Assembly: GCA_019637975.1 (NCBI GenBank)
Contig: JAHBUR010000002.1
Span: 124,001-188,000 of the forward strand
Origin: Bacteroidota bacterium
Lineage (GTDB): Bacteria > Bacteroidota > Ignavibacteria > UBA10030 > UBA6906
Direction: 5' to 3'
DNA: 64,000 nt
Below the pieces are notes generated by a model. That model was not told where the DNA came from and searched no databases. It saw nothing but the letters and a program-made list of their open reading frames with translations. Below are positions 29,477 to 61,674 of this stretch, piece by piece. Each line of letters starts with the position of its first letter. The first letter of the stretch is position 1. Position numbers and translations under genes: made by a program.

Positions 29477-29561
29477 ACCAAAGGAGGGACTCCCCGAACG
29501 CAGAGCGTTCGGGGTAAACGAACCTTTACCCCGACACAGTCGGGGCTCACCCGGTTTAGGC
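29475..29561 (-). pseudogene. tRNA-Leu 3' remnant interrupted by palindromic insert
   Basis: Read on the reverse strand, GCCTAAACCGGGTGAG (29561-29546) and GAGTCCCTCCTTTGGTAC (29492-29475) are identical to the variable arm and the T-arm/acceptor 3' end of the intact tRNA-Leu at 29902-29987. Between them lie 53 bases (29493-29545). The tRNA's own GGTTC is retained in the middle, flanked by hairpins (CCCCGAC/GTCGGGG; GGGGTAAA/TTTACCCC; CCGAACGC/GCGTTCGG). The stop codon of the GIY-YIG gene (29556-29558) lies inside the remnant. Confidence 0.8.
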
Positions 29562-29852
29562 TGTCTTTGATGCGATGACCTGTTCCAAAAACCTATGGCC
29601 GGGACCGCTTTTGAGGAACTGTTCTCTTCGTCTGGCTTCGGAACCTGATGGCACTTGTTCAGAGTAGACAAGTACAAAAGGGCGGCGGTGACGGGTTGAA
29701 AATGTTTTGCCGGAATTGTGCTCATTAATCCGCCGCTCGAAATCAGATGTCATGCCAATGTAGAGCTTATGGTCTTTGAGCGACCGAAGAACGTAAACCG
29801 TATATGAGGTACTTTTCTGCAGGTTGGTGGGGAATACTGATTCTTCATCCAC
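29556..29852 (-). CDS. GIY-YIG nuclease of the URI/UPF0213 type, downstream of tRNA-Leu
   Basis: A 98-residue protein with GTG start at 29852. Single catalytic domain: TSYTVYVLRSLKDHKLYIGMT (GIY-YIG as VYV-10-YIG), catalytic-type Arg in FERRINEHN, then TRHRRPFVLVYSEQVPSGSEARRREQFLKSGPGHRFLEQ with the family's Glu helix. Length is normal for stand-alone URI proteins. The last residues (KTA-stop) are encoded by sequence copied from the tRNA-Leu variable arm. Such nucleases nick DNA; here the placement between an intact tRNA and a tRNA remnant suggests a homing or insertion function. A second homologue stands next to tRNA-Ser at 60816. Confidence 0.85.
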   Translation of the reverse strand: MDEESVFPTNLQKSTSYTVYVLRSLKDHKLYIGMTSDFERRINEHNSGKTFSTRHRRPFVLVYSEQVPSGSEARRREQFLKSGPGHRFLEQVIASKTA

Positions 29853-29856
29853 GCCG

Positions 29857-29888
29857 AGGCCCGCCCCGATTTTGGTTCGGGCGGGCCT
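29857..29888 (-). terminator. terminator-like hairpin after tRNA-Leu
   Basis: AGGCCCGCCC-GA, loop ACCAAAA, TC-GGGGCGGGCCT on the reverse strand, 14 bases after the tRNA 3' end and 5 bases before the GIY-YIG start codon. No long T run follows, so it may equally be one of the palindromic repeats. Confidence 0.45.
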
Positions 29889-29901
29889 GTCGGAGCGTAC
29901 G

Positions 29902-29987
29902 TACCAAAGGAGGGACTCGAACCCTCACCCGGTTTAGGCCGGACTGGATTTTGAGTCCAGCGCGTCTACCAATTCCGCCACTTTGGC
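29902..29987 (-). tRNA. tRNA-Leu (anticodon CAA)
   Basis: An 86-base class II cloverleaf on the reverse strand: acceptor GCCAAAG/CTTTGGT, anticodon stem CTGGA/TCCAG around loop CTCAAAA (anticodon CAA, reads UUG), long variable arm GTCCGGCCTAAACCGGGT, T arm GAGGG-TTCGAGT-CCCTC. The 3' CCA is not encoded (discriminator A, then CGT). A sigma70-like promoter lies immediately upstream. Confidence 0.93.
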
Positions 29988-60499: not shown

Positions 60500-60611
60500 G
60501 GAGAGGTGGGTGAGTGGCCGAAACCAGCGGTTTGTCCGTCCCGTTCGATGGTCAAGCTTAGGAACGGGACGAGATCTCGTCACGCAAGGCGTGACGGACT
60601 AAACCGCCGTA
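60500..60611 (+). pseudogene. broken tRNA-Ser copy with palindrome in the anticodon loop
   Basis: Bases 60500-60534 are identical to the first 35 bases of the intact tRNA-Ser (60667). A 64-base palindromic insert (60535-60598, beginning TCCGTC and ending GACGGA) sits between TTTG and CTAA of the anticodon loop. CTAAACCGCCGTA (60599-60611) then resumes the tRNA. The variable arm is lost; CCAAGAGTTTAATTTT just beyond looks like a decayed T arm. Not functional. Confidence 0.85.
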
Positions 60612-60666
60612 TGGTCCAAGAGTTTAATTTTAAGAAGCGAGATTTTCCAGTTCATTGTTTCATTTC

Positions 60667-60759
60667 GGAGAGGTGGGTGAGTGGCCGAAACCAGCGGTTT
60701 GCTAAACCGCCGTAGGGTGTAAAACTCTACCGAGAGTTCGAATCTCTCCCTCTCCGCCA
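60667..60759 (+). tRNA. tRNA-Ser (anticodon GCT)
   Basis: A 93-base class II cloverleaf with encoded CCA: acceptor GGAGAGG/CCTCTCC, D arm GAGTGGCCGAAACC, anticodon stem CGGTT/AACCG with loop TGCTA region (anticodon GCT, reads AGC/AGU), variable arm GTAGGG-TGTAAAA-CTCTAC, T arm GAGAG-TTCGAAT-CTCTC, discriminator G. A strong terminator follows. Broken copies lie on both sides. Confidence 0.95.
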
Positions 60760-60766
60760 CAATGGG

Positions 60767-60798
60767 AGTCCCAACCCTGTAGAAGGGTTGGGACTTTT
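60767..60798 (+). terminator. Rho-independent terminator of tRNA-Ser
   Basis: AGTCCCAACCCT (60767-60778), loop GTAGA, AGGGTTGGGACT (60784-60795), then TTT. Perfect 12-bp stem. Confidence 0.9.
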
Positions 60799-60815: not shown

Positions 60816-61139
60816 ATGGCGTATCATGTATACATTTTGTTTTCACGTCTGCATGAGCGGACGTATGTGGGTCAGACAGAAGACCTGGAAAACCGTGTCC
60901 GGCACCATAATGCAGGGCGAGTGCGGTCGACGAAAGCCTACCGGCCTTGGGAGGTTCTGCACAGCGAATCCTACTCGACACGCGCTGAAGCAATGCAACG
61001 GGAGCAATGGTACAAGAGTCCGCAAGGGAGAAGGGCATTGAAAGAGCTTCTCTCTCGGGCGATTGCCTCCAGCGGTTTGTCCGTCCCGTTCGATGGTCAA
61101 GCTCAGGAACGGGACGGGATCTCGTCACGCAAGGCGTGA
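60816..61139 (+). CDS. GIY-YIG nuclease of the URI type, downstream of tRNA-Ser
   Basis: 107 residues from ATG 60816 (TTTGGAGG nine bases upstream). Catalytic core: AYHVYILFSRLHERTYVGQTEDLENRVRHHNAGRV, then STKAYRPWEVLHSESYSTRAEAMQREQWYKSPQGRRALKELL. It is homologous to the protein at 29556. The C-terminal ~24 residues are atypical: from codons AGC GGT TTG on, the frame reads a tRNA-Ser fragment and then the 64-base palindrome, stopping at the palindrome's TGA. Without the palindrome the frame would end at a TAA in the tRNA variable arm. Probably a nuclease of a selfish element targeting tRNA-Ser. Confidence 0.85.
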   Translation: MAYHVYILFSRLHERTYVGQTEDLENRVRHHNAGRVRSTKAYRPWEVLHSESYSTRAEAMQREQWYKSPQGRRALKELLSRAIASSGLSVPFDGQAQERDGISSRKA

Positions 61140-61308
61140 CGGACTAAACCGCCGTAGGGTGTAAAATCCGTCCCGAAGTGATGTACCAGTGTATCGGGGC
61201 GGGATCTGCCGGGTGGATCTTTGTTAGGGACTCTACCGAGAGTTCGCCGTCCCGTACACGGGACGAGCCTCGATCCCAATCGGGATCGGGAATCTCTCCC
61301 TCTCCGCA
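61069..61308 (+). pseudogene. tRNA-Ser 3' remnant interrupted by three palindromic inserts
   Basis: The tRNA-Ser sequence from CCAGCGGTTTG to CCTCTCCGC is present in order but split. Insert 1, 61080-61143 (64 nt), lies in the anticodon loop at the same position as in the 60500 copy and is 62/64 identical to it. Insert 2, 61167-61230 (64 nt), lies at the edge of the variable-arm loop, after TGTAAAA. Insert 3, 61247-61290 (44 nt), lies in the T loop, TTCG|AAT. All tRNA segments between inserts match the intact gene. The first 71 bases overlap the end of the nuclease gene. Confidence 0.88.
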
Positions 61309-61674
61309 AGACTACGCCCCGCCAAAAAACGGCGGGGCTTCGTCCTGCTGGCAGCCTGTGTTCCCGTCAAAAGGCGAATGCGGGCGTAGTCAGCATAACC
61401 GACGAAGCCGCTTCTCAGGCGCAGTCGATCTCTCCCTCTATAGCAAGGCAACGCCCTGCGAGAAAACGGCAATGCCTTGTCTTTCGGGCATACGGCAGGC
61501 ATTGAGCTTGCCTTTTCCTTTTCCCTTCCTCCCATAATTCCAAGCGACGGCGGTCACATTTTTTGGCAGGGGCTTTGTGTTTCAAGGGTTTTTTTCTCAT
61601 TTTTGTCTCGGGGTTTACACACTTCGCTCTCCGTCAACATTGGTCGCAGAACACATTTGAACACATTCAGTGGT
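61309..61674. other. gene-free stretch with palindromes and a second tRNA-Ser tail fragment
   Basis: GCCCCGCC/GGCGGGGC (61316-61338) is a perfect hairpin. ATCTCTCCCTCT at 61428-61439 repeats the tRNA-Ser T-stem/acceptor tail seen at 61292-61303, and both are followed a few bases later by GCAAG. AGGCAACGCC/AATGCCT-type inverted arms follow (about 61446-61505). No credible protein gene; possible short frames are compositionally repeat-derived. Confidence 0.5.

Follow-up and report, generated by a model that had tools for sequence, protein, structure and literature searches.

A GIY-YIG nuclease gene and hairpin-interrupted tRNA remnants suggest a small element that splits and restores tRNA-Ser(GCU) in a bacterium of the Bacteroidota

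The interrupted tRNA remnant found in the 64,000-nucleotide stretch of Bacteroidota DNA analysed here (the window) is probably, at odds that we put at about 0.6, the old 3′ half of a tRNA-Ser(GCU) gene, displaced when an isoacceptor-specific GIY-YIG element of homing type, which restores the tRNA, split that gene. In the proposed sequence of events, a small element with a GIY-YIG (Slx1-like) gene would split tRNA-Ser(GCU) between nucleotides 35 and 36, carrying its own copy of tRNA nucleotides 36-93 and a terminator. The resident 5′ half and the 3′ half of the element would then form the present intact tRNA-Ser, and the old 3′ half of the tRNA would be displaced behind the nuclease gene. The locus is arranged as follows.

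60500-60534, plus strand: 5′ remnant of tRNA-Ser(GCU), tRNA nucleotides 1-35 (100% identity to the intact tRNA in a spliced alignment)
60535-60598, plus strand: double-hairpin insert, a copy of insert 1, at junction 35|36 (TCCGTC..GACGAGATCTCGTC..GACGGA; RNA fold z -5.3)
60599-60615, plus strand: further part of the 5′ remnant, tRNA nucleotides 36-52 (94% identity, alignment to the intact tRNA)
60667-60759, plus strand: intact tRNA-Ser(GCU)
60768-60794, plus strand: terminator-like hairpin 3′ of the intact tRNA-Ser(GCU)
60816-61139, plus strand: GIY-YIG (Slx1/UPF0213-like) nuclease gene (PF01541, E 1e-15)
61069-61079, plus strand: 3′ remnant, tRNA nucleotides 25-35 (spliced alignment)
61080-61143, plus strand: insert 1, 64 nt, double hairpin, anticodon loop, 35|36 (spliced alignment, fold)
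61144-61165, plus strand: 3′ remnant, tRNA nucleotides 36-57 (spliced alignment)
61166-61229, plus strand: insert 2, 64 nt, edge of variable loop and stem, 57|58, with a start like that of insert 1, weakly folded (spliced alignment, fold)
61230-61245, plus strand: 3′ remnant, tRNA nucleotides 58-73 (spliced alignment)
61246-61289, plus strand: insert 3, 44 nt, two hairpins, T loop, 73|74 (TTC|GAATC; spliced alignment, fold)
61290-61307, plus strand: 3′ remnant, tRNA nucleotides 74-91 (spliced alignment)
61315-61338, plus strand: terminator-like hairpin 3′ of the 3′ remnant (counterpart in the sister genome G001)
61399-61439, plus strand: hairpin and tRNA fragment ATCTCTCCCTCT, the probable vestige of an older round (the hairpin matches the terminal part of a GIY-YIG element in G001)

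The preliminary description of this DNA had reported inserts of 64, 64 and 44 nt in a tRNA remnant, placed in the anticodon loop, at the edge of the variable arm and in the T loop, with all stem-forming segments intact. Spliced alignment bore this out for tRNA-Ser, with junctions at 35|36, 57|58 and 73|74: the 3′ remnant (61069-61307) consists of four blocks and three inserts, and no tRNA base has been lost. The statement that the inserts are palindromic elements is right; inserts 1 and 3 are strong hairpin pairs (z -5.6 and -4.7), and the fold of insert 2 (z -1.2) does not clearly exceed that of shuffled sequence, as 27 of 200 shuffled sequences fold equally well. Insert 1 does comprise two hairpins, and insert 2 does begin in the same way. 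The second copy of insert 1, in the 5′ remnant, had been missed; it is 97% identical and occupies the same tRNA junction. The 3′ end of the GIY-YIG gene runs into the tRNA remnant. In the 4.25-Mb genome, no Ser(GCU)-like match other than the intact gene is full-length, and this gene was also the only hit above threshold when the region was searched against Rfam. An archaeal-type tRNA intron, in which the sole copy is interrupted and needs splicing, is ruled out by this intact and uninterrupted tRNA-Ser(GCU), situated ~310 bp upstream of the 3′ remnant. Between the tRNA copies of the locus, the GIY-YIG gene is the only open reading frame that matched a protein family, and no tyrosine or serine integrase was found there.

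Comparison with G001 gives the arrangement a direction. In that genome the counterpart of the hairpin at 61315-61338 stands directly 3′ of the intact tRNA-Ser, so the hairpin is the presumptive ancestral 3′ flank of the tRNA, and the order of features is most simply explained if the nuclease gene and the tRNA 3′ half of the window arrived later. The hairpin at 60768-60794, which now follows the intact tRNA, is unlike the one 3′ of the orthologous G001 tRNA. The hairpin and tRNA scrap at 61399-61439 match the terminus of another nuclease element, one that G001 still carries, which indicates that elements have entered the Ser(GCU) locus on more than one occasion. In another genome (G002, L037), an intact tRNA-Ser(GCU) lies amid several hairpin-interrupted remnants, and no nuclease gene was noticed in the stretch read; the layout looks as if the nuclease gene had been lost.

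The nuclease has ~107 residues, and PF01541 matches residues 3-71 of 107. The closest solved structures by sequence are an SLX1 homolog (7wme) and the UPF0213 proteins 1ywl and 1zg2, and the alignment of homologues has conserved columns Y, Y.G, R, HN, E and K. On these features the protein is assigned to the Slx1/UPF0213 branch of the GIY-YIG superfamily, with a predicted catalytic domain and no auxiliary domain. NCBIfam has no family for it, and no relatives were found in the viral contigs and plasmids searched. The dN/dS of nine pairs of nuclease genes ranged from 0.07 to 0.23 (a tenth pair was saturated), and the protein is therefore under purifying selection.

The association of this gene with tRNAs extends across the order. 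At a cut-off of E<=1e-6, 71 of the 98 genomes from the order had homologues. A scan of genome contigs with the single protein reached only 6 loci. From the best-scoring part of the homologue list we took 126 distinct nuclease copies at 110 loci, picked by protein similarity alone and blind to tRNAs. Among these copies, 114 have a tRNA within 500 bp and 100 within 150 bp; in no case does the nearest tRNA lie on the opposite strand. By chance, proximity within 150 bp would be expected in ~0.5% of cases, and in any case under 1%, judging from the 43 tRNA matches in the genome of the window. For the other 12 copies, several of them at contig ends, no tRNA was seen within 500 bp, and three more distant homologues (L246-L248) have no adjoining tRNA. 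The adjoining tRNAs serve at least 12 amino acids. The order of parts is either intact tRNA, nuclease and 3′ remnant (type A, 65 copies) or 5′ remnant, nuclease and intact tRNA (type B, 49 copies), and a remnant of the same tRNA was found on the far side in 96 of 113 loci, as against 3 with a shuffled tRNA and 10 with a tRNA for another amino acid. At one locus (L061), the unit of tRNA nucleotides 36-90, nuclease and hairpin is repeated in tandem, as expected if an element inserts itself at 35|36 and reconstitutes the tRNA. The window itself carries a second unit, at tRNA-Leu(CAA), which has an orthologue in G001 with conserved hairpin stems (29493-29987, minus strand):

29493-29545, minus strand: part of a tRNA-Leu remnant, with hairpin inserts at 29525-29545 and 29493-29519
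29571-29807, minus strand: the other GIY-YIG gene in the window, with tRNA-Leu(CAA) 94 bp upstream
29901-29987, minus strand: intact tRNA-Leu(CAA)

In a tree built from 121 nuclease domains, there are 31 changes of tRNA isoacceptor, compared with 83 in shuffled data (minimum 76), 16 of hairpin class, compared with 40 (minimum 34), and 20 of layout (A or B), compared with 36; the domain is short and many branches are weak, but the counts are still far outside those of the shuffles. Nuclease lineages are thus each largely specific for one tRNA isoacceptor. As in homing endonucleases, the gene lies at a specific target and its specificity follows its lineage. Where loci of different families have homologous flanks, one is often of type A and the other of type B, which suggests repeated entry into one and the same tRNA gene, and such switching between A and B would give indirect support to copying into an unoccupied target. 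Each nuclease lineage may accordingly re-enter its own tRNA time and again, on either side.

The arrangement also occurs outside the order. The layout of the window recurs in a homologous element (L269) from a different family of the class, with hairpins at 35|36, 56|57 and 72|73 of tRNA-Ser(GCU), all of different sequence from those of the window. Because another family has matching sites with different hairpins, faulty assembly is unlikely to account for the three-site pattern, a concern that the preliminary description had raised. Among class- and phylum-level relatives, 24 of 32 nuclease copies in 22 loci lie within 400 bp of a tRNA. Read by eye, two Desulfobacterota metagenome-assembled genomes have a tRNA-Asn, a terminator, the nuclease and then a hairpin-interrupted tRNA-Asn remnant, and one from the Sphingobacteriales has a similar arrangement.

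The remnants of the 110 loci provided 61 comparable inserts, which fall into classes of ~20, 22, 30, 34-46 and 54-64 nt and consist mostly of two consecutive hairpins; some fit no class. These hairpin classes are frequent near nuclease genes and hardly occur in control stretches taken from these loci, with the exception of a loose motif for the 64-nt class. The best defined is the 30-nt class, TNNGCC-NNN-GGCNNA twice, with 428 copies in 44 of 98 genomes; the reversed pattern has no copies in the 98 genomes, and a control pattern with one extra base per loop had zero matches. In 60 sampled elements the stems covary, 111 of 120 variable dinucleotides being complementary compared with 36 after shuffling. 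The class is therefore a dispersed double-hairpin element, present in multiple copies beyond chance. It occurs in 41 of 71 genomes with the nuclease and in 3 of 27 without it (P 3e-5, with kinship ignored). The majority of sampled copies are not in tRNAs, and some seem to be part of coding sequence: at L172, L204, L208, L211 and L212, double hairpins of 10 codons each appear to lie in frame at the 3′ ends of host genes that are terminated by SGVYFYR-like sorting domains. Closely spaced or tandem copies were seen at L264-L266 (G021:C9, G060:C596 and G026:C65), spaced by ~140 nt in G021 and by ~92 nt or multiples in G060. The class of the window (TCCGTC..GACGGA) has three further copies of 48 nt in its own genome and copies in several relatives. 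The three 48-nt relatives of insert 1 (L249 1046; L250 903 and 1516) have a common right flank, CGATTT(C/A)GACA, and thus belong to a larger repeat. In one genome, a 54-nt double hairpin is nested in the loop of a larger dispersed palindrome (GTCATTCCC..GGGAATC) in seven copies (L251-L255, L262 and L263).

Two related tRNA-Pro remnants (L082 and L084) have one hairpin site in common and differ in the second, and this pair of empty and filled orthologous sites points to precise insertion of double hairpins. The preliminary description had also considered that something keeps the stems intact. In support of this, the few differences between sister species within hairpins fall in hairpin loops, in a handful of alignments read by eye, where the neighbouring nuclease gene has a dS of 0.6-1.3; some Arg and Pro sister pairs differ in hairpin stems or in filled sites. 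Conversion with the intact tRNA could account for the tRNA parts of the remnants, but not for the hairpins.

Why the inserts sit in loops can be answered in part. The preliminary description had proposed insertion directed at single-stranded loops, and an enzyme that places palindromes into the loops of folded tRNA-gene DNA or RNA would agree with the clustering, since loops hold 37 of the 61 inserts compared with 25 expected if placement were uniform (P ~0.002), and with a few non-tRNA copies that are centred within inverted repeats (L187, L185 and L200). The loop bias over all insert classes is real but moderate, as 16 of the 61 inserts are in stems. For the 30-nt class, moreover, the sites are explained by a palindromic sequence target, TTY|RAA, derived from 50 genomic sites, whose logo has no evident target duplication. 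A matrix built from 43 non-tRNA sites ranked the nine tRNA sites 1, 1, 1, 1, 1, 2, 3, 4 and 6 of ~72 junctions, and 94% of its mass within tRNAs falls in loops; 30-nt inserts thus lie in loops because TTCGAA-like motifs lie there, and sequence choice is enough for this class. Genome-wide, 30-nt copies are mostly outside hairpins or tRNAs, the very lack of loop preference that had been named as evidence against loop-directed insertion. The flanks of 30-nt copies can pair into a hairpin-like structure in 7 of 49 cases compared with ~4.5 expected (6 compared with 2 at a stricter cut-off), a weak inverted-repeat signal that comes from few sites, several being tRNA remnants. An inserter that recognizes structure and not sequence is thereby rejected for the 30-nt class only, for which the proposal is largely refuted, and overall we regard loop-directed insertion as very unlikely. 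For the class of the window, the few genomic copies hint at a less strict target centred on R|Y, for example TTTG|CTAAA.

Three other explanations were also considered. Hairpins might break the homology between remnant and tRNA and so stop deletion of the nuclease gene by RecA or slippage, whatever their origin, and the uninterrupted identical tracts in the remnants of the window are indeed only 11-35 nt long (11-22 nt for the segments of the 3′ remnant). However, remnants at L061, L067 and L087 retain 44-70 nt of uninterrupted identity, and such survivorship would not predict that hairpin sequences are conserved; we consider it unlikely. It is decidedly unlikely that neutral tandem tRNA duplicates simply collect unrelated palindromes as they decay, with the nuclease as a bystander or a host repair gene. 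The 30-nt and 48-64-nt elements are widespread outside tRNAs, and purifying selection on intact tRNAs would let inserts persist only in debris, both as such decay would have it; against it stand the one-way adjacency of nuclease and tRNA in 114 of 126 copies, the isoacceptor-specific clades, the conservation of hairpin stems and remnants although the synonymous sites of the neighbouring gene have diverged heavily, and the recurrence of the three hairpin sites in a distant family. A search for an HUH/Y1 transposase, which the preliminary description had recommended, did find five Y1_Tnp (RAYT-like) genes in the genome (L291-L295), and the hairpins could in principle be REP-like elements moved by such RAYT/TnpA-REP transposases. 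Yet none of the five adjoins a tRNA or a double hairpin of these classes, and two are flanked by different repeats of their own (CCCACGAC..GTCGTGGG and GCAGGGGC..GCCCCTGC), which leaves this origin only a slim chance.

For the reading that we prefer, a GIY-YIG element that enters and rebuilds its tRNA, the nuclease would cut the tRNA gene and drive insertion by homing; we infer this mobilisation, and every mechanistic step past the layout, from sequence comparison. The hairpins of the displaced halves are members of larger dispersed families with palindromic target preferences. They may be cognate to the nuclease, as recognised ends or as blocks to re-cutting; alternatively, they may hinder recombination, or be independent elements that only the dead half can tolerate. 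Their persistence in remnants would reflect the inability of intact tRNAs to accommodate them. Some observations count against parts of this reading. Insertion does not destroy the recognition site as homing would have it, since an intact tRNA is regenerated beside the element and should stay cuttable; any protection would have to lie elsewhere. The hairpin classes also track tRNA type, so the pairing of nuclease and hairpin is confounded with target and descent. Finally, three genomes have 30-nt elements and no GIY-YIG match at the threshold.

Several known systems resemble these elements in part. The free-standing GIY-YIG and Seg homing endonucleases of T-even phages, which are thought to spread by cutting their targets, are in some cases encoded near tRNA genes and so provide a precedent for a GIY-YIG nuclease gene beside tRNA genes. 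The genes described here differ in being chromosomal, of single-domain Slx1-like type and confined to one isoacceptor per lineage, and in that the tRNA is split and regenerated and a hairpin-studded remnant is left. Islands and prophages that integrate at tRNA genes through tyrosine integrase att sites likewise restore the tRNA and leave a remnant at the far end; here, in contrast, there is no integrase, the element measures ~400-500 bp, it may lie on either side of the gene and its remnant is interrupted by hairpins. REP/REPIN sequences and their RAYT (Y1) enzymes share the short palindromic pairs and the classes that track a nuclease lineage, whereas the present nuclease is GIY-YIG and not Y1/HUH, the target is the palindromic TTY|RAA and the local Y1 genes go with other repeats. 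Double-hairpin elements of fungal and algal mitochondria and the palindromic elements of Rickettsia are inserted into RNA genes and, in frame, into coding genes. They too have adjacent hairpins with changing stems; those described here are bacterial, have defined size classes and a defined target motif, and are linked to tRNA-specific nuclease genes. A 2006 survey of the GIY-YIG superfamily (PMC1564403) covers prokaryotic Slx1 homologues and, in the passages covered, does not report a tRNA-gene neighbourhood. In the open literature, from which most subscription journals are excluded, no tRNA-specific chromosomal GIY-YIG elements were found.

It is possible, at somewhat less than even odds, that these loci represent an undescribed class of bacterial mobile element, in which an Slx1-like GIY-YIG nuclease of ~90-110 residues and its cognate double hairpins enter and rebuild one isoacceptor gene and the hairpins also spread alone, as a GIY-YIG counterpart of REP/RAYT, in the phylum of the window, the Desulfobacterota and the Sphingobacteriales. 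This would give a likely job to widespread small GIY-YIG proteins so far known by their domain alone, and would mean that bacterial chromosomes bear nuclease genes specialised by tRNA isoacceptor. It would also account for odd broken tRNAs and for strange C-termini of open reading frames that run into tRNA remnants. These elements have a defined target motif and a candidate enzyme and may provide a test case for the spread of palindromic repeats with hypervariable stems.
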